Assembly (NCBI GenBank): GCA_003151555.1
Contig: PLXU01000067.1
Coordinates: 1-36,454 of the forward strand
From: Acidimicrobiaceae bacterium
Lineage (GTDB): Bacteria > Actinomycetota > Acidimicrobiia > Acidimicrobiales > RAAP-2
Length of the DNA: 36,454 nucleotides
Reading direction: 5' to 3'
Below the pieces are notes generated by a model. That model ran no database searches, was not told where the DNA came from, and saw only the letters and a list, made by a program, of their open reading frames with translations. This document shows positions 6,232 to 19,843 of this stretch, piece by piece (the stretch's first letter is position 1; each line of letters starts with the position of its first letter). The position numbers and the translations under genes were made by a program.

Positions 6232-7146
6232 CTACGTGCTTAACGTCGCGAGGCGCAGGAGTTCAAAGAGGCGGTCCACTTCGGCGCGCGTCTCCTCATC
6301 CAAGTGGTAGCCGAGGGGTCCGCGAGCGAACGTGGACGCCAGAACCCCCTGGCGCTTGAGGATATGTTTTTCGATGGCCACGTAGGAGTCAATCGACGTT
6401 TGCAGATCAATCAGCAGGCTGAGCGGTCCGCTGATGGCGTACGCCAGTGGCCAGTTGGCCGAAGCGAGGGCGTCCCACATTTTCTGGACGGCCCAGCAGA
6501 CTTCGGCGCCCGGCATCGTGCCGACGGCTCCTCGCCGAAAACTGTCGACCAGGGCCACTCCCCCCGTGCCCTCGAACACCCGGGCCTGGCCTCGCGTGGC
6601 GTCACGTATCTTGGTGACACGCTGACCGATTGGGGGCGCCTCGGGCTTGAAGTAGATGCGCTCGCCGTACGTGGCCAGGAGCTTGGCCTGCACTTCGATG
6701 CTGAACGGGCGGCCCACGTACCCACTGGCGTCCTGGATCACCAGGCCGATCGACATCGAGTCGGCGACGGCGGAGTAGTAGCCGTAGAGGGCGTCATCGT
6801 CGAGCACCACCGAGATCGGTGGGATCACCATCGCCGCGTCAGCGCCGACCGCTTCGGCGTGGCGGGCGTGCATCACCGCGGTGTTGGTACTTTCGGCGCC
6901 GCAACTGATGACCGAAATCACGTCGCGTTCAATCGCCACCCCGACCACGACTTCGCTGAGTTGATGGCGCTCGGTCTCACTGAGGCGTAGTACTTCGGAG
7001 ACCATGCCGGTAGTAAGACCCGCGACGCCTTGGTTAAGGACCCACTGGCACTCCTTGATGAGGGCCACCTCGTCAATGGCCCCGTCGTCGTCGAATGGGG
7101 TTTGAATCACCGGCAGCACTCCGGCGAGTACCCGACTAGTTGACAC
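6232..7146 (-). CDS. DHDPS/N-acetylneuraminate lyase family protein (candidate 2-keto-3-deoxy-aldonate dehydratase or aldolase)
   Basis: 304 aa; GVLPVIQTPFDDDGAIDEVAL N-terminus and Schiff-base lysine context RIYFKPEAPPIG typical of DHDPS/NAL class I lyases. Confidence 0.88.
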   Translation of the reverse strand: MSTSRVLAGVLPVIQTPFDDDGAIDEVALIKECQWVLNQGVAGLTTGMVSEVLRLSETERHQLSEVVVGVAIERDVISVISCGAESTNTAVMHARHAEAVGADAAMVIPPISVVLDDDALYGYYSAVADSMSIGLVIQDASGYVGRPFSIEVQAKLLATYGERIYFKPEAPPIGQRVTKIRDATRGQARVFEGTGGVALVDSFRRGAVGTMPGAEVCWAVQKMWDALASANWPLAYAISGPLSLLIDLQTSIDSYVAIEKHILKRQGVLASTFARGPLGYHLDEETRAEVDRLFELLRLATLST

Positions 7147-7203: not shown

Positions 7204-8724
7204 CTACGCGCGCAACTGTCCGTCCACTCGACGAACGATACCCAACGGGTTGTCCTCCTTGATCGACTCCGGCAGCCACGCGTCCGGCACCGACTGGTAC
7301 GAGACGGGACGCAGCCACCTGCGCATCGAGTTGGCTCCCACTGACGTATGCAGCGCCGACGTGGTGGCCGGATGTGGGCCGCCGTGGTGCATGGACCACG
7401 ACACCCCGACGCCCGTGGGATAGCCATTGATGATCACCCGACCGGCGAGCTGACGTCCTAAATCAATGAGTACCGGTCCCCAGTCATCGTCGCTTTCGGC
7501 GTGCACGGTGAACGTCAGGGCCGGCTCGAGGTCGCTCAATGCCTCCAGGAGTCGCTCGCGTTGCGCGTAGCGCACGACGATCGCCACCGCGCCGAAGCAT
7601 TCGGTGTCCAGGATCGAGGCGTCCGGGCCGCTCAGGGTGTCGAGCGCAATTTCGACCAGCACGGCGCCCGCGCCCGAGGGCCCCGAGCCGCTCGAACTCC
7701 TCGCCAGCACTTCGACACCTTGGGTGTCGAGCAGCGCCGCCACGCCAGCGTCGTAGTGCTCACGAATCGCGCTACTCAGCATGGTGGCCCCGGCGCTCGC
7801 ACTCATGGCCTCGCGCGCCGCGCTCACCACTTCGTCGCCGTCTCGCCCACTCGGCACGAAGAGCAGGCCCGGCTTCGTACAGAACTGTCCCGCCCCGAGC
7901 GTCACGGAGGCCACCATGGCCGCGCCAATCTCACTGGCCCGGGCGCCGGCCGCGCGCGGCGTGATCACCAGCGCGTTCACACTACCGAGTTCACCGTAAA
8001 AGGGAATAGGAACGGCCCGCGCCTGCGCCCGGTCAAAGAGGAAGCGACCAGCGCGGTACGAGCCGGTGAATCCCACGGCGCGCACGTTGACGTCGTCCAC
8101 CAGCGACACGCCCGCCGCCACGCCGAACACGCACTGGAGCAGATCGACCGGTGCATCAACTTGGCTCGCGGCACGCTCGAGGGCGCGTACGCAGAGTCGC
8201 GACGTGTTCGGATGGGCGGGATGGGCCTTGACGATCACGGAGCATCCGGCCGCCAACGCCGACGCCGTGTCGCCGCCGGGCACCGAAAAAGCCAGCGGGA
8301 AGTTCGACGCGCCAAAGACTGCCACCGGTCCGAGTGGCTCGAGTTGACGGCGCAGGTCGGGCAGCGGTCCCATGGGCGTGTCGGTGGCGTGATCAACGCT
8401 GGCCTCTAAAAAACCACCATCGCGTACCACCGAGGCGAAAAACCGGAACTGGAACGACGTGCGGCGCAGCTCGCCCGTCAATCGTCCCTCACCGAGTCCC
8501 GTTTCCTCGTTGGCGGCGGCGATGATCGCCGCGCCGTCGTCGTCCAGCGCCTGGGCCATGGCTTCGAGCAGGCCTGCGCGCCACTCGAGCGAGCGGGTCG
8601 CGAACGTCGTGGCGGCGCCCAGTGATCGTCGGCCCATCTGCACCACCTCTTCGACGCTCGTCTCGTGAATGCCGAGCGGCGTCGCCACGCCGGTGACGGG
8701 ATTCGTGCTGAAGACCTCACTCAC
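7204..8724 (-). CDS. Aldehyde dehydrogenase, alpha-ketoglutarate semialdehyde dehydrogenase-like
   Basis: Motifs FGASNFPLAFSVPGGDTASALAAGCSVIVKAHPAHPNTS, PFYGELGSVNALVITP and catalytic Cys GAGQFCTKPGLLFVP. Probable GTG start at 8724 (VSEVFSTNPVTG); track ORF to 8823 would overlap the upstream gene. Confidence 0.9.
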   Translation of the reverse strand: MSEVFSTNPVTGVATPLGIHETSVEEVVQMGRRSLGAATTFATRSLEWRAGLLEAMAQALDDDGAAIIAAANEETGLGEGRLTGELRRTSFQFRFFASVVRDGGFLEASVDHATDTPMGPLPDLRRQLEPLGPVAVFGASNFPLAFSVPGGDTASALAAGCSVIVKAHPAHPNTSRLCVRALERAASQVDAPVDLLQCVFGVAAGVSLVDDVNVRAVGFTGSYRAGRFLFDRAQARAVPIPFYGELGSVNALVITPRAAGARASEIGAAMVASVTLGAGQFCTKPGLLFVPSGRDGDEVVSAAREAMSASAGATMLSSAIREHYDAGVAALLDTQGVEVLARSSSGSGPSGAGAVLVEIALDTLSGPDASILDTECFGAVAIVVRYAQRERLLEALSDLEPALTFTVHAESDDDWGPVLIDLGRQLAGRVIINGYPTGVGVSWSMHHGGPHPATTSALHTSVGANSMRRWLRPVSYQSVPDAWLPESIKEDNPLGIVRRVDGQLRA

Positions 8725-8788
8725 GCCGGTCCCCTTCGTCGTGCGCGGAGCGCGAAACCAGTCGGCGTCCGGGGTCGTTGGGCTGTAC

Positions 8789-9964
8789 TCACGAGGTGAG
8801 GACGCGAAGGGAGCGCCCGCCATTGGGATCGAAAAAATGAAGGTTGTCGGTAGTGAGACCGAGAGTGATCAAACTGCCCTCCACGACGTCGGTGCGCGCA
8901 CTGAGGCGAGCGACCACGCGCGAACGCTTGCGAACCGTTTCGGCGTCGCTCGTGGGCAGGGCATCGAGCACCACGTCGGTGTTCGACGTGATGGCCAGGT
9001 ACGCCAGTATCTCGGAACCGAGTGCCTCGCGCAGGTCGACCCGGGCCCTAAGGAGATCGTCGGTCGTCGAATTGTCAGCCACCAGGTCCTCGGGGCGAAA
9101 GCCCAATACCACCTGACGTCCGATCCACTGTGCCAGGGCGTGGGTGCTCCGGTACTGCTCGGGGATGAGCAGCGACTGGTCGCCGAAGTGGGCTCTCGTG
9201 ACGCCTTGGCCTTCGTCCAGGTTGGCCAGGATCAGGTTCATCGGGGGCGAACCAATGAAGCCGGCCACGAACTCGTTGGCGGGGAAGTCGTAGAGGTCCT
9301 GGGGGGTGTCGACCTGCTGGAGCAGTCCCCCGCGCAACACGGCCACGCGGTCGCCCATCGTCATTGCTTCGGTCTGATCGTGGGTCACGTAGACCGTCGC
9401 CACGCCCAGCAATCGCTGAATTCGCGCGATCTCGGTGCGCATCTCGACGCGCAACTGCGCATCGAGATTCGAGAGCGGCTCGTCCATCAAAAAGGCCTGG
9501 GGCTCACGCACGATGGCCCGGCCCATGGCGACGCGTTGACGCTGGCCGCCCGAGAGCGCCTTGGGACGGCGGTCCAGATACTCATCGAGGCGCAGTATGC
9601 GCGCGGCCTCACCCACGCGCTGGGCAATCTCCGCCTTCGCCACGCCGCGAATCTTGAGGGCGAAACCCATGTTCTGCGCGACCGTCATCTGGGGATAGAG
9701 AGCGTAGTTCTGAAAGACCATGGCGATGTCGCGGTCCTTGGGCAACACGTTGTTCATCACCGTGCCGCCGATCGCGATCGTGCCGTCGGAGATCTCCTCG
9801 AGGCCCGCCACCATGCGCAGCGCCGTCGTCTTGCCGCAGCCCGACGGTCCCACCAGCACCATGAACTCACCGTCGGCGACGCTGAGCGAGAGGTCGTTGA
9901 CGGCGGGCACCCCGTTGGCGCCCGGATAAATCTTGGTGACTCGCTCAAAGACGACGTCGGCCAC
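8789..9964 (-). CDS. Sugar ABC transporter ATP-binding protein (UgpC/MsmK/MalK-like)
   Basis: Walker A GPSGCGKTT, signature LSGGQRQRVAMGRAIVREP, Walker B FLMDEPLSNLDAQLR, C-terminal regulatory (TOBE-like) domain. GTG 9964 preceded by GGGGAAAGG is the likely start. Confidence 0.95.
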   Translation of the reverse strand: MADVVFERVTKIYPGANGVPAVNDLSLSVADGEFMVLVGPSGCGKTTALRMVAGLEEISDGTIAIGGTVMNNVLPKDRDIAMVFQNYALYPQMTVAQNMGFALKIRGVAKAEIAQRVGEAARILRLDEYLDRRPKALSGGQRQRVAMGRAIVREPQAFLMDEPLSNLDAQLRVEMRTEIARIQRLLGVATVYVTHDQTEAMTMGDRVAVLRGGLLQQVDTPQDLYDFPANEFVAGFIGSPPMNLILANLDEGQGVTRAHFGDQSLLIPEQYRSTHALAQWIGRQVVLGFRPEDLVADNSTTDDLLRARVDLREALGSEILAYLAITSNTDVVLDALPTSDAETVRKRSRVVARLSARTDVVEGSLITLGLTTDNLHFFDPNGGRSLRVLTS

Positions 9965-10015
9965 GACACATACCTTTCCCCGCACTCAACGTGGCGGTGG
10001 CGCCAGGATAAACCT

Positions 10016-10885
10016 TCATCGGTCGATCCCCATGGTGAGACCCTGGATGAGGAAGCGCTGGAAGCCCAAGTAGACCAGCATCGCCGGCAGCGCCGACACC
10101 AATGATCCGGCCAACAACTCGGGGATCGAAGTGGTTCGTCCCGCCGCCAACGCCGCCAGTCCCACGGTGATGGGCCGCTGGCTGGGGTTCTGCAGGAAGA
10201 GCAGGCCCACCAGCAGGTCGTCCCAAATTTGAATGAACTGCAGCACCGTCACCGTCGCGATCGCCGGCAGGGCCATCGGCAGGATGAGACGGGTGAGCAC
10301 GCCGGTGTAGCCCAGTCCGTCGACGATGCCCGCTTCAATGAGCTCGTCGGGGATGCGACGAAAGTACGTCGTAAAGAGAAAAATGGAAAAGGGCGTGCCG
10401 AGCGCCGCGTAGACAATGACGGCGCCGAAGTAACTGGTCGTCAGTCCCAGCTTGGCCATGTTGACGAATTCGGGCATGAGTATTGCCTGCAACGGGACCA
10501 TCATGGCGCTCACCACGGTCAAGAACACCACGTTCGAGCCACGAAACTGGAGCTTGGCGAAGGCGAAGCCGGCGGCCCCGCCCACGACGAGCACGATGAA
10601 GATCGAGGCCGAACAGATGATGGTCGAGTTGAGCAACTCCTGATAGATCGGCAAGGTCTGATTGAGATCCTTCCAACTCTGCAGCGATGAACCACGGCCG
10701 ATCAGGTACTGGCTCTCGGTCTTAAAGCTGGTGACCAGCATCACCACGAACGGGTACAGCATCACGCCGGCGACCAGGATCATGACCACGAGCAGTACGG
10801 CGCGCGCGACGCGCCGGCGAATCTGACGCGGCGTCAGTTTGGGCGGCGTGGCGACGTGCGCCGGCGTGACGAGCGCGGTGCTCAT
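10016..10885 (-). CDS. Carbohydrate ABC transporter permease (MalG-like)
   Basis: MSTALVTPAHVATPPKLTPRQIRRRVARAVLLVVMILVAGVMLYPFVVMLVTSFKTES; EAA-like loop ELIEAGIVDGLGYTGVLTRLILPMALPAIAT. ATG at 10885 overlaps the upstream gene stop; track ORF to 11167 is over-extended. Confidence 0.93.
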   Translation of the reverse strand: MSTALVTPAHVATPPKLTPRQIRRRVARAVLLVVMILVAGVMLYPFVVMLVTSFKTESQYLIGRGSSLQSWKDLNQTLPIYQELLNSTIICSASIFIVLVVGGAAGFAFAKLQFRGSNVVFLTVVSAMMVPLQAILMPEFVNMAKLGLTTSYFGAVIVYAALGTPFSIFLFTTYFRRIPDELIEAGIVDGLGYTGVLTRLILPMALPAIATVTVLQFIQIWDDLLVGLLFLQNPSQRPITVGLAALAAGRTTSIPELLAGSLVSALPAMLVYLGFQRFLIQGLTMGIDR

Positions 10886-11826
10886 CAGTCCTTCGCCCCT
10901 AGCAGGCGCAGTTGAAAGACGCCCACCACGCACATGATGATGAAGAGAATCAAGCCGTAGAGGGCGGCTGTGCCGAACTGGGCCTGGGCGAAACCGGTCT
11001 GGTAGACCAGAAACTCCATTGTCGTGGTGGAGTAGCCCGGACCGCCGCCGGTCATGACAAATATCAGGCTGAAGAGCGCGGAGAAGGCCGAGATGATCGT
11101 GATCACGAAGGCCAGCTGGATGAACCGGGTGAGGTGGGGAATCGTGATGTGGCGAAAGATCTTCCACGAGCTGGCGCCGTCTATGCGCGCGGCCTCTTCC
11201 TGACTGGGGTCGAGGGTGGCCAGCCCGGTGAGAAAGAGCATCGTGTTGGTGCCGATCATGGAGAAGATGAACGTCACGCCGAGCGCGATGAGGGCCGTCG
11301 ACTCATTGCCGAGCAGATTGGTGTGCGAATGAGAAAAGCCCAGCCAGTCGAGCATCGAGTTGAGGGTTCCCGAGTAGGCGAAGAAGTGCTCGGCCACGAG
11401 ACCAATCACGACCCACGAAATTGCCGTGGGCAAAAAATAGATCGAGCGGAAAATCTTCCAGCCGGCCACCTTTTGGTGCAGCAGCACCGCGATGCACAGC
11501 GGAATGCCCAGCGCGAAGGGCACCGACAGCAAGAGCAACGCGTTGTTTTCCAGCACTCGCCACATCGTCGGATTGTGGAAGGCCTGGGTCCACGCCGACG
11601 GACCTATCCAGGTCGTCGTCACACCGTTCCACTCGGTCATGGAGTAGTACACCGCTTGGCCAATGGGAACAACGATCAGCAAGGTGATGAGCACCAGGGC
11701 GGGCAACGTCAAGACGAGGCCCATGCGCCGGCGACGGCGGGTCAACAGCGACGTCGAGTACGTGGGGCGAAAGCGTGACCCGGCGCGTCTCGGTGTGCGT
11801 CGTAGGTCCAGCGCCGATATCGCCAT
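10885..11826 (-). CDS. Carbohydrate ABC transporter permease (MalF-like)
   Basis: 313 aa, multiple TM helices; EAA-like loop EEAARIDGASSWKIFRHITIPHLTRF. Confidence 0.93.
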   Translation of the reverse strand: MAISALDLRRTPRRAGSRFRPTYSTSLLTRRRRRMGLVLTLPALVLITLLIVVPIGQAVYYSMTEWNGVTTTWIGPSAWTQAFHNPTMWRVLENNALLLLSVPFALGIPLCIAVLLHQKVAGWKIFRSIYFLPTAISWVVIGLVAEHFFAYSGTLNSMLDWLGFSHSHTNLLGNESTALIALGVTFIFSMIGTNTMLFLTGLATLDPSQEEAARIDGASSWKIFRHITIPHLTRFIQLAFVITIISAFSALFSLIFVMTGGGPGYSTTTMEFLVYQTGFAQAQFGTAALYGLILFIIMCVVGVFQLRLLGAKD

Positions 11827-11905: not shown

Positions 11906-13210
11906 CTATCCGGCGTACGCCTTGCCACGTTGGCTGGCCGGCAACTGTTGCCACGTCTGCTGCATCTTTTGCAGGGCCGCCGAAGGCGTTGTCTGATTTG
12001 CCAGTACGGTCGTCAGCTCGCTGCTACCGGCATTGACGACGTTGCCCTGGGTGACGTTGTCCAACATTGGATACACCGTGAGGTGCTGTTGGGTCACGAA
12101 GTTCAACATCTGCTGGTTGACCGGGTTGGTGGTCGTCGTACCCTGCAGGTCGGGAATGAGGCCGGCCTTGTTGATAATCGCCGCCGCCGCCGGGGTCGTC
12201 ATGAACGTCTCGAACTTGTAGTCGTCCGCTAAGTGCTTGGAGTAGTTCATGACGCTGATGCCGTCACCGGGGAAGTCGACCACGCCCTTGATGGGCTTGG
12301 CCGAGAAAGGTGGCACGAAGGCCGCTACCTTCGATCCCATGGCCGCGGTGTACGTCGCCGTGTCCCAGGTGCCGTCCATGATCATGGCCGCCTTGCCCTT
12401 TTCGAACTGCTGGATGTTGGTGGTGTTGGTCAGCACGTCGGGGTTGGTGCAACCCATGGTCTTGAGCTTCTGCCACGCCGCCAGCGACGCTTCGGTGGTC
12501 TTGGACGTCCAGGGGATCGAGCCGTTGTAGAGGCTCTTCCACTGGGCCACCGAGTAGTCACCAATCATCATGTAGCTGAGGTCGTACCAGGGGTAAAACT
12601 CGGCGCCCAGGGCTTGGCCGCCGTTGCCGTAGGAGAAGGGCGTGACGCCGATCTTCTTCAGCTTGGTGCAGGCAGCGTACAACTGCGTCCAGTCGGTGGG
12701 CACCGACGTGACACCGGCCCGGGCAAAGAGCGCCTTGTTGTAGAAGCCAATGTAGAACTGGGTCTCCAACGGCATTACCAACGGGTCCGACGTACCGGTC
12801 ATGCCCGGCGTCATCCACTGCAGTCCCTCCATCTTGCTCAGGGCCGTGGCCGACACGTGACCCTTGAGGGGCTGAATCATGCCCGAGTACTGCAAGGCGT
12901 ACAGGCCCGTCCACATGACCGCCAGGTCCGGCCCGCTCTTGGACACGTCCGCCGACTGCAGCAGCGGGAAGTAGTTGTCCGCCGGCTCCGACACCACGTT
13001 GACGGCGATGTTCGGATTCTGCACCGTGAATGCCTTGGCAATGGCTTTGATCGCCACGGCGTTCGACTCCGTGCCATAGTTCTCCCACAGCGTTAACGTC
13101 ACCTTGCTCGACGACGCGCCAGCCAACATCGGAACAGCGACAAGAACACTGCTAGCTATTAGCGCGGCGGCGAGAAACTTCGCTGGGTTTCTCCTCCAAT
13201 TTTTTCTCAC
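11906..13210 (-). CDS. Extracellular sugar-binding protein of ABC transporter (family 1 type)
   Basis: Signal-peptide N-terminus; VTLTLWENYGTESNAVAIKAIAKAFTVQNPNIAVNVV...; GKAAMIMDGTWD motif; adjacent to permeases. GTG start preceded by AAGGGG. Confidence 0.93.
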   Translation of the reverse strand: MRKNWRRNPAKFLAAALIASSVLVAVPMLAGASSSKVTLTLWENYGTESNAVAIKAIAKAFTVQNPNIAVNVVSEPADNYFPLLQSADVSKSGPDLAVMWTGLYALQYSGMIQPLKGHVSATALSKMEGLQWMTPGMTGTSDPLVMPLETQFYIGFYNKALFARAGVTSVPTDWTQLYAACTKLKKIGVTPFSYGNGGQALGAEFYPWYDLSYMMIGDYSVAQWKSLYNGSIPWTSKTTEASLAAWQKLKTMGCTNPDVLTNTTNIQQFEKGKAAMIMDGTWDTATYTAAMGSKVAAFVPPFSAKPIKGVVDFPGDGISVMNYSKHLADDYKFETFMTTPAAAAIINKAGLIPDLQGTTTTNPVNQQMLNFVTQQHLTVYPMLDNVTQGNVVNAGSSELTTVLANQTTPSAALQKMQQTWQQLPASQRGKAYAG

Positions 13211-13282: not shown

Positions 13283-14998
13283 TCAAGACCTTCCCACCAC
13301 GGGCTCTTCGAGCCGCGGCGTCACCCCTGGCGTACCCGCCAGAAAATCAAAGTCGCACCCGTCGGGTGCCTGCTGCACGTGCGCGAGGTACATGGCTTGA
13401 TAGCCGCGCGCGTCGCTTCGTTTCAAGTCGCTGCGCGCTCTTCGCCGATCAAGTTCAGGTCCGTCAACCTCGAGATCAATGGTCCCGGCGTCGGCGTCCA
13501 CACTGATCATGTCGCCCGACTCCACTAAACCAATCGCGCCGCCCACGGCCGCCTCGGGCGCCACGTGTAGAAAAACCGTGCCGAAACTAGTGCCGCTCAT
13601 GCGGGCATCGGTGACGCGCACCATGTCGTTGACGCCCGCGCGCAGCACGCTCTTGGGCAGCGACACCATTCCCCACTCGGGCATGCCCGGCCCGCCGACC
13701 GGACCGGCACCGGCGAGCACCAGCACCGACGTTGGATCGACGTCATCGTCCGACGACGTTGCCTCGGCCACGTCGACCGCGGATCGCATGACGAGCGCCG
13801 GACCTCGATGGCTCAGCAATTGAGTCGTCGCCGCGCAGCGCTTGATGAGGGCCCCGTCGGGGGCGAGGTTGCCGTAGACCACGCGAAACGCTCCGCCGGC
13901 GTCCAGCGGATCTTCGAGCGCGCGGATGACCTCACCGGTGTTCGCGGCGTTTCGGGCCCATTGGTCACACGTTCGTCCGTCGGCCATCACCACGTCTGGG
14001 TCGAGCCTGGCGCCCAACGCTCGCCACACGCTGGGCGTACCGCCAGCGCGGTCGAAGTCTTCCATCAGCCCGGAGCCGGTTGGTTCGATGTCCACGAGCA
14101 CCGGCGTCGACCGCCCGGCTCCGTCGACGTCCTTGAGTCCGAAGGTCACGCCCAGACGACGCGCGAGCGCCGTGAGATGGATGACGGCGTTGGTCGAGCC
14201 ACCAATCGCGCTCAGTACCTGGGCTGCGTTGACGAAGGCTTGGCGAGTGGCAACGCTCGCGGGCGTGACGTCGTCTCGCACCATGTTCACGATGCGAAGA
14301 CCCACCGCCCGGGCGTAGTCCAAGTGGCGAGCATCGCCGGCCGGCACTGACGTCGAACCGGGCCACGCGAATCCCAGCGTTTCGGCGAGCGCGCCCATCG
14401 TCGAGGCGGTTCCCATCGTGTTACAGGTACCGCGTCCCAGCGTCAGCGCAACTTCCAACTGGGCCCACTCCTCGTCGCTCAGCGTGCCAGCGCGACGAGA
14501 CTCCCACAGGCGCCACAGATCCGTGCCCGTCCCGATCCGTCTCCCCTGAAAATGGGCACTGGGCCGCGGCCCAGCCGTGACCAGCAGGGTGGGCAGGTTG
14601 GTGCTGATGGCGCCCATGAGGGCGGCCGGTACCGACTTATCGCAGGCCGCGAGGACGATCACGGCGTCCAGGGGCTGGCTGCGCAACGACTCTTCCACTT
14701 CCATCGCCACCAAGTTGCGGTACAACATGGCGGCCGGCTTCATGAGGTCCTCGCCCAGGGACATGACGGGGAATTCAACGGCCACGCCCCCGGCCTGGGC
14801 GACGCCGGCCTTGATCGAAGGGATCAAATCATTGAGCGGCTGATTACAGGGATTAAGGTCGCTGGCCGAATTGGCCAGGCCAATGACGGGCACACCGCCC
14901 TTGGCCGACACGCTTTGGCCCCCCATGGCCAGTGCGACGCGCGCGTCGAGGGCAACTTCGTCGTCGCCACTCAACCAAGCATCGCTGCGCAGCTTCAT
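13283..14998 (-). CDS. IlvD/Edd family dehydratase (candidate aldonate/sugar-acid dehydratase)
   Basis: Cluster-binding motifs NPCNQPLNDL, AACDKSVPAALMGA, GRGTCNTMGTASTMGALAETLG; GGSTNAVIHLTALARR; DARMSGTSFGTVFLHVAPEAAVGGAIGLVESGD. Confidence 0.93.
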   Translation of the reverse strand: MKLRSDAWLSGDDEVALDARVALAMGGQSVSAKGGVPVIGLANSASDLNPCNQPLNDLIPSIKAGVAQAGGVAVEFPVMSLGEDLMKPAAMLYRNLVAMEVEESLRSQPLDAVIVLAACDKSVPAALMGAISTNLPTLLVTAGPRPSAHFQGRRIGTGTDLWRLWESRRAGTLSDEEWAQLEVALTLGRGTCNTMGTASTMGALAETLGFAWPGSTSVPAGDARHLDYARAVGLRIVNMVRDDVTPASVATRQAFVNAAQVLSAIGGSTNAVIHLTALARRLGVTFGLKDVDGAGRSTPVLVDIEPTGSGLMEDFDRAGGTPSVWRALGARLDPDVVMADGRTCDQWARNAANTGEVIRALEDPLDAGGAFRVVYGNLAPDGALIKRCAATTQLLSHRGPALVMRSAVDVAEATSSDDDVDPTSVLVLAGAGPVGGPGMPEWGMVSLPKSVLRAGVNDMVRVTDARMSGTSFGTVFLHVAPEAAVGGAIGLVESGDMISVDADAGTIDLEVDGPELDRRRARSDLKRSDARGYQAMYLAHVQQAPDGCDFDFLAGTPGVTPRLEEPVVGRS

Positions 14999-15951
14999 CG
15001 CAGGGGAACCCCAAGGCCCTTCGCGCCGGCCAAGGACATGACGAGGTCACTTTCGCTGCGCTTGATCCATTCAATAGATATGGCGGCGCGACGCACTTTT
15101 TCGCGCACGTTCCCCACCACGTCTGAGGAGAGATGCTGTCCGGCCGGATACACGGCGCGAGCGTTACGAAGTCCGTACTTGGCGTAGACCGGCGCCGCGA
15201 CCAACACCGTTTCGACCACTTCGTGTCCGCGCACCATGCCGCCGAGAGAGTCGGGGGCCTCAAGATAGATATCGATGGGCGTCTCGGCGACCGCGCGCAC
15301 TTCGCACAGCTCCATCAACGTCATGTCGGAAGGGATATTGATCGTGCTGGCTCCGAGTTTGGCCAGCATTCGAAACGCGACGGGATTGGACGGCGCCAAT
15401 ACCGCCGACGCCTTCCAAACAATGTCGCTGGGCAACTGATTCGCCGCGACCAACTCACCGACGATTTCCAAGAGGCCCAAATCGGCGACCAAAAAACCAC
15501 GGATGCCTGATTCGAGGGCGCGGTGAATGTCTTCGAGGGCGTAACGAAGTTGGTGCAGGCCGCGAAGGTGACCCGACATCGATCGGCCCTCCGACGCGTG
15601 TACCGCGCCCCCGGTGCCGAACTCTTCGCGAGGGCCCACAAAAAGGCTTACTTCGATACCGCGGTCCGCGCCCATGGCGGCCATCTCACCCAACTCCTTT
15701 TCACTCAACAACATGGCGCCGCTGCCCTGGGAAACGCGATGCACGGTGACACCCAACCGGTCCGACTCTTCAATGACGGCCGCCATGGCGGAGGGATTTT
15801 CCACCGACGGTATTTCCACGCGCATCTGGGCACCATCGGGGAACCGAGCCACGCTCAAGGAGAGCTCCAACTTGTGAAAGCCGACCGTGTCGTCGAGCGC
15901 TCGATTGCCGGCTGGCGTCCCGGCGCCCCTGATCTCATTTTTGTTGCTCAT
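14995..15951 (-). CDS. Peptidase U32-like / TIM-barrel family protein of unknown function
   Basis: 318 aa; alternating beta/alpha pattern with GIRGFLVADLGLLEIVGELV, IVWKASAVLAPSNPVAFRMLAKLGASTINIPSDMTLMELCEV and PIDIYLEAPDSLGGMVRGHEV resembling U32 barrels; 4-bp overlap with dehydratase gene. Confidence 0.6.
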   Translation of the reverse strand: MSNKNEIRGAGTPAGNRALDDTVGFHKLELSLSVARFPDGAQMRVEIPSVENPSAMAAVIEESDRLGVTVHRVSQGSGAMLLSEKELGEMAAMGADRGIEVSLFVGPREEFGTGGAVHASEGRSMSGHLRGLHQLRYALEDIHRALESGIRGFLVADLGLLEIVGELVAANQLPSDIVWKASAVLAPSNPVAFRMLAKLGASTINIPSDMTLMELCEVRAVAETPIDIYLEAPDSLGGMVRGHEVVETVLVAAPVYAKYGLRNARAVYPAGQHLSSDVVGNVREKVRRAAISIEWIKRSESDLVMSLAGAKGLGVPLR

Positions 15952-15964
15952 GATCCCCCTTTGA

Positions 15965-17101
15965 TCACTCCAACACCAACAGATCTGCGGCGCTCAACGG
16001 ATCGTCCGGATCACATCGGGGCCACAGCCCGGTTGTCGTTACACACTCATTACCAGATTCACCGACCAAAAAGGTATCCTCGACCTTCGCTCCCCCGTGC
16101 AGGCTGGGATTCCAGGCAACGGCTACGTTTTGCTCGATTGGTCGTGACCAGAAGGCCGAGTGCGTGGCCTCGGGCGAAAGTTCGAATTCGCGTTGGGCGT
16201 AGCCAATGGGGCCTCCCTGAAAGTGATCGCGCCACGCCTGGCCGTGACCGACGTCTCGATAGGCACGTGAGAGCGCACCGTAAGCGTCGCCCCAGGTGGC
16301 GCCCGGAGTGCTCGCCAACAGCGTCGCGCGCGCGACCGACGACACCAACGCGTAATCGTCGCTCAGTCGTTGGTCGGCGCTGTTGGTCGCCATGCGAGTG
16401 GCCGCCACGTGCAGGCCGCTCCAGCGCACCACCACCACGGCCATCAAGAGTTCATTCACCACCGCGCCGCACATCATGGGGTGTCGAAACGTCTTGACGC
16501 GATCGTCACCACCAACGATGAGGCAGACCGCCTCGGCACCGATGGTTTCCAGACCGAGCTGAATCTCGCCGGCCACCGAGAAGTCCGCGGTTATTCCGGG
16601 CTGCCACGCACGAACGGCCTCTTCCAAGACTCGCGCCGACTCGGCGCCGAGCCAACGCAACATCTCGCGCTCGCCGCCCGAGAGAACCATGCGAAAAGCA
16701 GTGAGCTCGGTCGAGACGTCCGTACCCAGACCAACGTCACTGAGGACATCTGCGTGATCGTGCTCGGCCGCGGCCAAAGCGGCCTTGGCGAAACCGTTCT
16801 CTTCGTACCAGGGAACCGCGACCACCTTGAAACCCAACTCTTCGAGTTCACCTTCGGCCGCGAAACGAGGGATCTCCACCGAGCTGATGAGCAGGGTCGG
16901 CTCCTTGGCGTCGACCAGCCAGACGGCATCGAATGCGGCGGTGCGGTCAATGGGTTGAGAGACCCCGCCCGTGGCCCAGGCCACGGATCCCGACGTGCCC
17001 AAGATCAATGGCGCGTCTCCGTGGACCCGTCGAATCGCCCTGAGCGCTTCGCGGGCGTGTTGCACCCTTGCCCGGCGGTGCTCCCTCGCATTCGGTATCA
17101 C
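15965..17101 (-). CDS. M24 (Xaa-Pro aminopeptidase/creatinase) fold protein lacking most metal ligands
   Basis: Track ORF reaches 17179; a GTG at 17101 with GGAG upstream is a plausible start. C-terminal pita-bread pattern WRDHFQGGPIGYAQREF...AVAWNPSLHGGAKVEDTFLVG. Confidence 0.78.
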   Translation of the reverse strand: MIPNAREHRRARVQHAREALRAIRRVHGDAPLILGTSGSVAWATGGVSQPIDRTAAFDAVWLVDAKEPTLLISSVEIPRFAAEGELEELGFKVVAVPWYEENGFAKAALAAAEHDHADVLSDVGLGTDVSTELTAFRMVLSGGEREMLRWLGAESARVLEEAVRAWQPGITADFSVAGEIQLGLETIGAEAVCLIVGGDDRVKTFRHPMMCGAVVNELLMAVVVVRWSGLHVAATRMATNSADQRLSDDYALVSSVARATLLASTPGATWGDAYGALSRAYRDVGHGQAWRDHFQGGPIGYAQREFELSPEATHSAFWSRPIEQNVAVAWNPSLHGGAKVEDTFLVGESGNECVTTTGLWPRCDPDDPLSAADLLVLE

Positions 17102-17200
17102 AGAACTCCGTTCGTGAATGTTTACGTTATCTAACCATAAAGTTTCCATCGTGGCCAGAGATTCCCACACATAATTCAAATTTCTGTATTGTGTTCGCTA

Positions 17201-17989
17201 ATGCCGAATTTAGAGACGACTGATCGGTACCAGGTTCGAAGCGTGGCGCGGGCCCTCGAGATGCTCGAGGCGGTGGGCGAAAGTGGCGAGACGGGTCTCA
17301 CCCTTACCGAAATGGCCCAGCGACTGGACATGGCCAAGAGCTCTACCATGGCGGCGGCACGAACGCTGGCGTCCTTCGGATTCCTGCGCATCGAAACGCC
17401 TGGTCCGCGTTACCACCTCGGCCTCGCCCTCCTGCGCTACGGCGATCTGGTGGCCCAGATGACGTCACTGGGAAAAATCGCACTGCCCCTGCTCAATGAG
17501 CTCACCGAAGAGACGGGCTTGACCTCGCGCCTGGCCATCAACGAGGAGGGCTACCCGGTTTTCATCGAGCGCGTCGACGGGCGGGGATCGGTTCGTTTTT
17601 ACACGCCACTCGGTCAACGTGAGTCGCCGCACAGCACTGCTGCGGGTAAGGCAATCCTGGCCCAGCTCGGCGAAGAGCAAGTCCTTCGCATTGTGAATGA
17701 AACTGACCTGGTTGCGAACGCGGCCAACTCCCTCACGACGATTGACGCGGTACTGAATGAGCTGAAGTACGTGCAATTGGTTGGCTACGCGATTGACAAC
17801 GAAGAAGAGGCTGACGGCATCATCTGCGTGGGCGCACCAATTTTCAATTACAACGGACACTGTGCGGGCGCCGTGAGCGTGACGGGTCTCAAGGTCGACA
17901 TCACCCAGCGGGTAATCGGGCCCTTGTGCACCACCGTGCTCAGCTACGCCGAACGGATCTCGGCCCTCATTGGCAACGTGCGCCTCTGA
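17201..17989 (+). CDS. IclR family transcriptional regulator
   Basis: MPNLETTDRYQVRSVARALEMLEAVGESGETGLTLTEMAQRLDMAKSSTMAAARTLASFGFLRI winged HTH plus effector-binding domain (SPHSTAAGKAILAQL, CVGAPIFNYNGHCAGAVSVTG). Confidence 0.94.
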   Translation: MPNLETTDRYQVRSVARALEMLEAVGESGETGLTLTEMAQRLDMAKSSTMAAARTLASFGFLRIETPGPRYHLGLALLRYGDLVAQMTSLGKIALPLLNELTEETGLTSRLAINEEGYPVFIERVDGRGSVRFYTPLGQRESPHSTAAGKAILAQLGEEQVLRIVNETDLVANAANSLTTIDAVLNELKYVQLVGYAIDNEEEADGIICVGAPIFNYNGHCAGAVSVTGLKVDITQRVIGPLCTTVLSYAERISALIGNVRL

Positions 17990-18984
17990 TGAGGGCCGTG
18001 GTGGTTGCGTCGCCCGGCCACGTGGCGCTGCAAGACATACCCGCACCGCTAGCCGCGCCGGGTGAACTCCTGATCCAACCAGTTGCTTGCGGCATGTGCG
18101 GCACCGACCTCGAATTGATCGATGGATCGATCGACCCCGCGTACGTGCGCTATCCGCTCGTCCTCGGTCATGAATGGGTTGGTCGGGTGCTTGACGGCGA
18201 TGGTGAGCCCACGGGCGGCCCCGTCGCCGTCGAAGGCATCATTCCCTGCGGGCACTGCGTCGAGTGCCTGATTGGCGCGACGAACCGTTGCGAGACCTAC
18301 GACGAAATTGGTTTCACCCGGCCCGGGGCGCTGGCCGAGTTAATCAGCGTGCCCGAAGGTCTGGTGCACTATCTGTTGCCTTCCGTATCCATGCTCGACG
18401 CCGCCCTGGTCGAACCAATGGCGGTGGTGTGGCGCGCGCTGGTACGTACTGCCATTCGTCCCCGCTCGACGTGCCTGGTGATTGGCGATGGCACGGTGGC
18501 GATGTTGGCGGTGCACTTACTGGGGCGCTTTGATCCTACGCGCATATCCATGTTGGGGGTACGTCCCGCCCAGCGTGAACTTGCCCTGCGAGCCGGGGCA
18601 AATGAGTTCCTCCTCGAACCGTCGGACCAGCGCTTCGACGTCATCATCGAGGCGGCAGGTCACGCGGAGGCCGTCACAACGGCCCTTTCTTCGATCGCTC
18701 GAGGTGGATCGATAACGTTGCTCGGTCTGCCACCCCACGGCACCCAAGTATCAATTGTCCCCGATGATTTTGTCAATAACGACATCACCTTGCAAGGCAG
18801 TTTCGGTTACACGCGCCAGCCCTGGTCCGACGTGGTCGCACTACTGAACGACGGTGAGGTCACGCCATCATTTCTCGTGACCCACACCTTTGGCATAGAT
18901 GATTTCAATCTCGCCATTGAAACCCTGCGTACTCCACCACCCGAGGCCGCGCGCGGCAAAGTGATGATGCTTCTCAACACGTAG
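17989..18984 (+). CDS. Zinc-type medium-chain alcohol/polyol/sugar dehydrogenase
   Basis: ATG overlaps IclR stop (TGATG). CGMCGTDLELIDG, LGHEWVGRVL, IPCGHCVECLIGATNRCETYDEIGFTRPGALAELISVP typical of the MDR superfamily. Confidence 0.92.
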   Translation: MRAVVVASPGHVALQDIPAPLAAPGELLIQPVACGMCGTDLELIDGSIDPAYVRYPLVLGHEWVGRVLDGDGEPTGGPVAVEGIIPCGHCVECLIGATNRCETYDEIGFTRPGALAELISVPEGLVHYLLPSVSMLDAALVEPMAVVWRALVRTAIRPRSTCLVIGDGTVAMLAVHLLGRFDPTRISMLGVRPAQRELALRAGANEFLLEPSDQRFDVIIEAAGHAEAVTTALSSIARGGSITLLGLPPHGTQVSIVPDDFVNNDITLQGSFGYTRQPWSDVVALLNDGEVTPSFLVTHTFGIDDFNLAIETLRTPPPEAARGKVMMLLNT

Positions 18985-18997
18985 CGCATCACGCGCA

Positions 18998-19843
18998 CTA
19001 CCACGTGTGACAGGGGCCGCTCTGCGCACCAGGGCACTTAGTCGAGCTATTCGTAATGGCGTTGGTCGTACTGGTTTGCGACAGACCGGCCCCGCTTAGG
19101 TTGGCGCCGGACAAGTTAGCGGACATTAGATTGGCGTTGAAGAGATTTGTGCCCGACAGGTCAGCCGACGACAGATTGGCGCTCGACAGGTCGGCACCCG
19201 AGAGATCAGCGTGCGACAAGTTGGCGTTGGCAAGATTCGCACTGAAGAATTTCGCCCCAGCGAGGTCGGCGTGCGACAGGTTGGCGCCGTGCAGTGAGGC
19301 GAAAGCCAGATTCGCGTCGGGACCGATGAGATAGCCGTTCACCAGTTTCCATCCGGCGGGCAACGTGGGATTGCCCTTCACGAGACCGGAGGTTACGAAG
19401 CTCAAGTCGGCGCCGGAAATTCGGGCATTCACAATATTGGTGCCGTAGAGGTCGGCGCCGGACAATTGAGCGCCGTTGAGATTTGCGCCGGGGCCAACGA
19501 GGTAACCGTTGATGAGGTCCCATCCGGCGGGCAGTATGGGTAAACCGACGACTGACCCAGAGGAAACGTTGTTCAGGTGGGCACCGGACAACTCGGCGCC
19601 TTGCAAGTCAGCGCCCTTTAGGTTGGCGTTCATTAGGTCCGCATTCTCCAAGTTGGCGTTCTTGAGATTGCGGCCCGTCAAGTTACAGTTGGCAAAATTG
19701 ACGCCGGCGTGCGGCTTCGCGTGACAGTTCACGCTCAGGGCGTTCGCGCTGGGCGCGAGCGTCCACAGAGCGACGCCAAAACCAGCGGTAGAGAGAAGTA
19801 GCACGACAAGTCCGCTCCAGCGAGTCAACGTCAGTCGGTGCAC
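18998..19843 (-). CDS. Secreted pentapeptide-repeat protein
   Basis: N-terminal hydrophobic signal; many A(D/N)LxX repeats (NLENADLMNANLKGADLQGAELSGAHL..., NLSHADLSGADLSSANLSSADL) with two LPAGWxLxNGYLxGPxANL modules. Confidence 0.92.
   Translation of the reverse strand: MHRLTLTRWSGLVVLLLSTAGFGVALWTLAPSANALSVNCHAKPHAGVNFANCNLTGRNLKNANLENADLMNANLKGADLQGAELSGAHLNNVSSGSVVGLPILPAGWDLINGYLVGPGANLNGAQLSGADLYGTNIVNARISGADLSFVTSGLVKGNPTLPAGWKLVNGYLIGPDANLAFASLHGANLSHADLAGAKFFSANLANANLSHADLSGADLSSANLSSADLSGTNLFNANLMSANLSGANLSGAGLSQTSTTNAITNSSTKCPGAQSGPCHTW

Follow-up and report, generated by a model that had tools for sequence, protein, structure and literature searches.

A Candidate Metal-Independent Mutarotase Family With a Peptidase M24 Fold in Bacterial and Archaeal Sugar Operons

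The window analyzed here, a stretch of 36,454 nucleotides from an Acidimicrobiaceae bacterium, carries in a sugar operon the gene of an M24-like protein which, by alignment, has lost four of the five M24 metal ligands (D to V, D to A, H to G, and E to N in the window), a loss that extends across its whole family. The reading favored here, with a confidence somewhat above even, is that the family acts as an aldose 1-epimerase (mutarotase) that needs no metal and stands in for GalM without being homologous to it. Whether it amounts to an unrecognized M24-fold mutarotase family of Actinobacteria, Deinococcota, Cyanobacteria, Enterobacterales, and haloarchaea, which substitutes for GalM and is hidden under the label of M24 metallopeptidase, is judged an evenly balanced question. 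The fold family, the ligand loss, the conserved residues, the neighborhoods, and a partial alternation with GalM in one clade are read from sequence, and from these we infer the reaction, its catalytic pair, and its sugar.

Gene and Fold Assignment

The M24-like gene is encoded on the minus strand; on the plus strand, the frame at 15965-17101 is interrupted by stops (Table 1). Its open frame runs from a TTG at 17179 to 15965, and the GTG at 17101, with an SD-like GGAG just upstream, is a plausible start; the exact start is uncertain because start codons vary among relatives. In Pfam, the protein matched only PF00557 (Peptidase_M24; E 7e-7, 29.6 bits, cut-off 23), which bears out the M24 fold assigned to it in an earlier sequence-only reading of this DNA; PF01263 (GalM) was not matched, nor was any model in an NCBIfam search. 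Its relatives score between 30 and 56 bits against PF00557, and two of them also exceed the Creatinase_N cut-off. An AlphaFold2 prediction from two sequences (the window protein and one relative) gave a pLDDT of 31.6, too low for use. Upstream extensions of the open frame at four loci (L054, L066, L079, and L069) match no family and offer no fusion clue to function.

Table 1. Features of the M24-like gene and its operon in the window (residues in GTG numbering).
Feature	Position	Strand	Remarks
DHDPS-family aldolase/dehydratase	6232..7146	-	
Aldehyde dehydrogenase	7204..8823	-	
ABC ATPase, MalK type	8789..9985	-	
ABC permease	10016..11167	-	Open frame exceeds gene
ABC permease	10885..11826	-	
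ABC sugar-binding protein (SBP_bac_1)	11906..13210	-	
IlvD/EDD-family sugar-acid dehydratase	13283..14998	-	Best models PRK06131 and L-arabinonate dehydratase
U32-like TIM-barrel-type protein	14995..15951	-	Pfam U32 just below cut-off
M24-like gene	15965..17101	-	About 378 aa from GTG start at 17101; predicted aldose 1-epimerase
Glu341, sole retained ligand position	16079..16081	-	Candidate catalytic Glu; E in 66/66 family members and in canonical proteins
Asn331, first Glu ligand position	16109..16111	-	EPG to NPS; canonical E 12/12; family N 66/66
Gly297, His ligand position	16211..16213	-	GHGVG to GGPIG; canonical H 12/12; family G 66/66
His293 (DHFQGG), non-ligand	16223..16225	-	Equivalent to AMPP H350; H in 65/66, Tyr in closest relative
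Ala233, second Asp ligand position	16403..16405	-	SDxTR to VAATR; canonical D 12/12; family A/S/N/C
Val222, first Asp ligand position	16436..16438	-	Canonical D 12/12; family V/A/T/S
His207 of RHP motif	16481..16483	-	Candidate catalytic His; invariant in alignment A2 (43 sequences)
IclR-family regulator	17189..17989	+	Divergent
Zinc-type polyol/aldose dehydrogenase	17926..18984	+	

Metal-Ligand Positions

Ligand positions were checked in an alignment that set 66 distinct relatives against a panel of 12 canonical prolidase-type proteins drawn from related genomes. Where M24 metallopeptidases carry D, D, H, E, and E, the window protein reads V, A, G, N, and E, and none of the 66 relatives departs from the family pattern, those of Actinobacteria, Thermus, Pantoea, and haloarchaea included. 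HMMER profile alignments to 5cdl and 1pv9 give the same result at three positions (second Asp, His, and second Glu) and open a gap of two residues at the first Asp. The segments quoted in the sequence-only reading (NELLMAVVVVRWSGLHVAATRMAT, AVAWNPS, RDHFQGGPIGY, and KVEDTFLV) are all present in the window protein, and the replacements it had proposed, of both Asp ligands by Val and Ala and of a Glu ligand by Asn in AVAWNPS, were confirmed. It had also counted three lost ligands, which is right as to the loss and one short as to the number, and had considered a His and the final Glu as kept. The Glu is indeed conserved; the ligand His has become Gly, and the His that is kept is a non-ligand one. 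In Escherichia coli AMPP, the ligand His is H354, and H350, four residues upstream, does not bind metal (PMC5774706); it is with this conserved non-ligand His, four residues ahead of the ligand, that the His of RDHFQGG in the window aligns. Even the latter is replaced by Tyr in the H-x-QGG motif of the closest relative (L021:8064-9209 and L002, G015), and therefore this His is not indispensable.

Other polar residues are remarkably constant. Across the 43 diverse members of alignment A2, an Arg, the His of RHP, a second His, Q-G-G, a further Arg, N-P, a Lys, and the Glu are all invariant. His207 probably occupies the position of AMPP H243 and creatinase H232, with an alignment uncertainty of one or two residues. 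Because the ligand loss is family-wide while other polar residues are near-invariant, the M24-like protein is, on the evidence of these alignments, a re-purposed protein and not a product of decay. Chance or sequencing error was rejected, the substitutions being fixed in 66 relatives and relatives being present in 28 of 100 related genomes, and so was pseudogene decay, given that the polar residues are invariant and the open frames, with few exceptions, intact.

The Operon in the Window

The genes accompanying the M24-like gene read as a non-phosphorylative (oxidative) aldose pathway, whose first oxidative step is likely the zinc-type polyol/aldose dehydrogenase, and the ABC sugar transporter genes bear out the link to sugar import that had been suggested earlier. 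The same operon type (M24-like, U32-like, IlvD, ABC transporter, (DHDPS), and ALDH genes, with divergent IclR and dehydrogenase genes) was found at more than 20 loci, and the U32-like gene is fixed between the M24-like gene and that of the IlvD-type dehydratase in 26 loci of this type. The intergenic region between the M24-like and IclR genes (17102-17200) contains, in about 20 related loci, a conserved promoter-like TTGAC ... TGCTTGTAT as well as operator-like repeats GTTCGGCAT / CCGAAC. Adjoining the operon, at 18998-19843 on the minus strand, there is a gene for a pentapeptide-repeat protein with a signal-peptide-like start.

An operon with a dehydrogenase, an aldonate-type dehydratase, and no recognized lactonase could be completed by a sugar lactonase, which would open the aldonolactone made by the dehydrogenase to the aldonate used by the IlvD-type dehydratase; proteins related to the M24-like one are also found near other DHDPS/ALDH sugar operons (loci L105-L107). 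This function is nevertheless unlikely for the M24-like protein, since it fits oxidative operons only, and the family is also embedded in galT-galE-galK and xylA-xylB operons, pathways that form no lactone. Moreover, the U32-like neighbor is a candidate as well, and could equally be the enzyme that supplies the missing lactonase activity.

Distribution and Phylogeny

Relatives of the window protein were found in 28 of 100 related genomes, with identities up to 77%, and in at least 31 of 397 genomes across the phylum and at least 13 of 298 in the order, although these last two surveys scored no more than the top five or six candidates of each genome, so that absence is under-called. Plasmid-borne relatives occur in Thermus, Pantoea, haloarchaea, Deinococcus, Nostoc, and Gloeothece; for example, the homologue of Thermus thermophilus HB8 is located on pVV8. 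A search of viral contigs gave no relatives. In a tree of 64 relatives and the 12 canonical proteins, the two groups separate with a support of 100/100. One genome of the order (G090) holds two closely similar M24-like copies, on contigs C101 and C22 (L034 and L035).

Neighborhoods in Other Genomes

In an actinobacterial family, f57, the M24-like gene is found inside or at the end of a Leloir operon. The gene orders found are galT-galE-galK-M24 (L099, L100, L118, L119, L123, and L124), galT-M24-galE-galK (L094 and L122), M24 between galT and galE-galK (L121), and galT-galK-GH36-M24 (L120). The M24-like gene lies 0.9-3.1 kb from the galK signature in every f57 genome in which the two were detected (13 of 13); in a single genome of f82 and a single one of f47, they are 4.6 and 6.4 kb apart, respectively. 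Sugar genes of other kinds surround the family elsewhere. In Thermus, the M24-like gene follows xylB in a xylF..xylA-xylB operon, and overlaps it in HB8; in Nostoc it overlaps malQ; in haloarchaea it adjoins arabinofuranosidases and sugar ABC transporters; in Pantoea it lies between GMC oxidoreductase and SDR genes; and in Deinococcus an ALDH-M24 pair is located near a sugar ABC transporter and an L-fucose isomerase. Some members (e.g., L110 and L097) have no recognized sugar gene nearby. At one locus (L104:2279-3316, G191), a gene of the URO-D (uroporphyrinogen decarboxylase) family directly adjoins the M24-like gene. As far as gene content indicates, a free reducing sugar is the feature common to the pathways of the sugar-gene neighborhoods, and it speaks for an anomer-interconverting enzyme (mutarotase) more than for a hydrolase.

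Compared across phyla, the neighborhoods point to no amide, amidine, or guanidino compound as a shared substrate and have no nitrogen-handling genes in common. This weakens the earlier idea of a creatinase-like hydrolase, taken here as one acting on the C-N bond of a sugar derivative such as a glycosylamine, an amidine, an N-glycoside, or a glycated amine. Such an activity would be in keeping with the fold superfamily, which is that of the metal-free creatinase, and with a candidate His and Glu at sites that probably correspond. However, the sequence is nearer to prolidase than to creatinase, the reading fits no operon type in particular, and the variety of sugars would demand a general glycosylamine substrate, all of which leaves a C-N hydrolase with a rather small chance of being the right answer.

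Alternation With GalM

The relation to GalM is clearest in f57, where 20 galK-bearing genomes could be scored, leaving out one (G393) cut at a contig end. The M24-like gene alone is present in 12 of them and a PF01263 protein alone in six, whereas one (G411) has both and one (G152) has neither despite its galT-galE-galK genes (one-sided Fisher P 0.0012, relatedness ignored). Four sister genomes (G293, G152, G185, and G196) lack an M24-like gene at the end of their galT-galE-galK operon, and three of them (G185, G196, and G293) have a GalM-type gene elsewhere in the genome. In other actinobacteria, GalM adjoins galK (L181 and L182). Phylum-wide there is no exclusion, since 8 of 32 carriers of the M24-like gene also encode a PF01263 protein, among them the genome of the window, which has two. 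A pattern that would fit the replacement of GalM by the M24-like gene is partial, and clear only in f57.

A Proposed Mutarotase

The mutarotase reading is favored because the Leloir, xylose isomerase, maltodextrin, and oxidative aldose pathways share only the need for anomer exchange. The alpha anomer is the substrate of both GalK and XylA, and in E. coli galM is part of the galETKM operon, GalM using a Glu/His pair. The M24-like protein would be cytosolic and would bind the free reducing sugar in its pita-bread pocket, where an acid/base pair would open and re-close the sugar ring; conservation points to His207 and Glu341 as the best candidates for this pair. Asn331, Lys339, Arg206/Arg304, and Gln295 would hold the sugar hydroxyls. 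Both anomers delivered by the ABC transporter would thereby become available to the anomer-specific enzyme that follows, in the window presumably the divergent zinc dehydrogenase that heads the oxidative aldose pathway (dehydrogenase, dehydratase, DHDPS-like enzyme, and aldehyde dehydrogenase). No relevant open-access paper was found that links M24 to a mutarotase, a galactokinase, xylose, or sugar operons, an earlier description elsewhere being possible. A paper on the xylose region of Thermus brockianus names xylF, xylH, xylR, xylA, and xylB, and a term search of its text found no mutarotase or epimerase (PMC5292009).

Alternatively, the loss of the catalytic metal site could have left a true pseudoenzyme, i.e., a non-catalytic sugar-binding partner or sensor that modulates, for example, a regulator or a kinase, and M24 already counts pseudoenzymes that are not peptidases, those of the Ebp1 type (PMC3888471). 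Against this, residues of acid/base type are near-invariant from bacteria to archaea, and the enzymes that surround the gene come with a wide variety of regulators (IclR, ROK, and GntR), so that a role of this sort seems improbable. The least credible option by far is a peptidase that binds its metals through other residues, as public records imply by labeling family members M24 family metallopeptidase or aminopeptidase P. No member retains more than one of the five ligands, the operon context is sugar catabolism, and the genome of the window encodes several further M24 proteins. With the metal ligands lost, a metallopeptidase is therefore very unlikely, and on this point the sequence-only reading, which had not taken it for a peptidase, is upheld.

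If the family does consist of mutarotases, the metallopeptidase annotation is wrong for an entire clade. Many bacteria and archaea would then have an enzyme for a missing step, anomer interconversion, in their use of galactose, xylose, and arabinose, and within the M24 fold creatinase would be joined by a metal-free isomerase.

Comparison With Known Systems

By profile, the family is closest to the prolidases and aminopeptidases P (M24B; 5cdl and 1pv9), being like them of two-domain prolidase type (E about 1e-18) and sharing with them the last Glu ligand, the His of H350 type, and the basic residue two positions before that Glu. It differs from them in its V, A, G, and N ligand replacements, in its sugar-operon context, and in forming a separate group in the tree. 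Creatinase is an M24-fold enzyme that works without a metal centre. Its structure (1chm) is matched weakly by the family profile (E 0.019), and is not the closest one; its His232 and Glu358 may be equivalent to the invariant RHP His and Glu. The loci of the M24-like family show no guanidino context. With GalM (PF01263), the M24-like gene shares the operon slot by galK and the pathways served, with partial mutual exclusion in f57; the fold of GalM, however, is a beta-sandwich, and the window protein is of M24 type. Mutarotases have evolved repeatedly in sugar operons, as RbsD/FucU, RhaM, and NanM illustrate, all with folds unrelated to that of the M24-like family. Finally, other M24-fold proteins have been re-used on non-peptide substrates, namely the ectoine hydrolase DoeA, a weak match to the family profile (E 3e-5), and the DMSP lyase DddP, which, unlike the M24-like family, is a metalloenzyme that has kept its metal ligands (PMC4108388).
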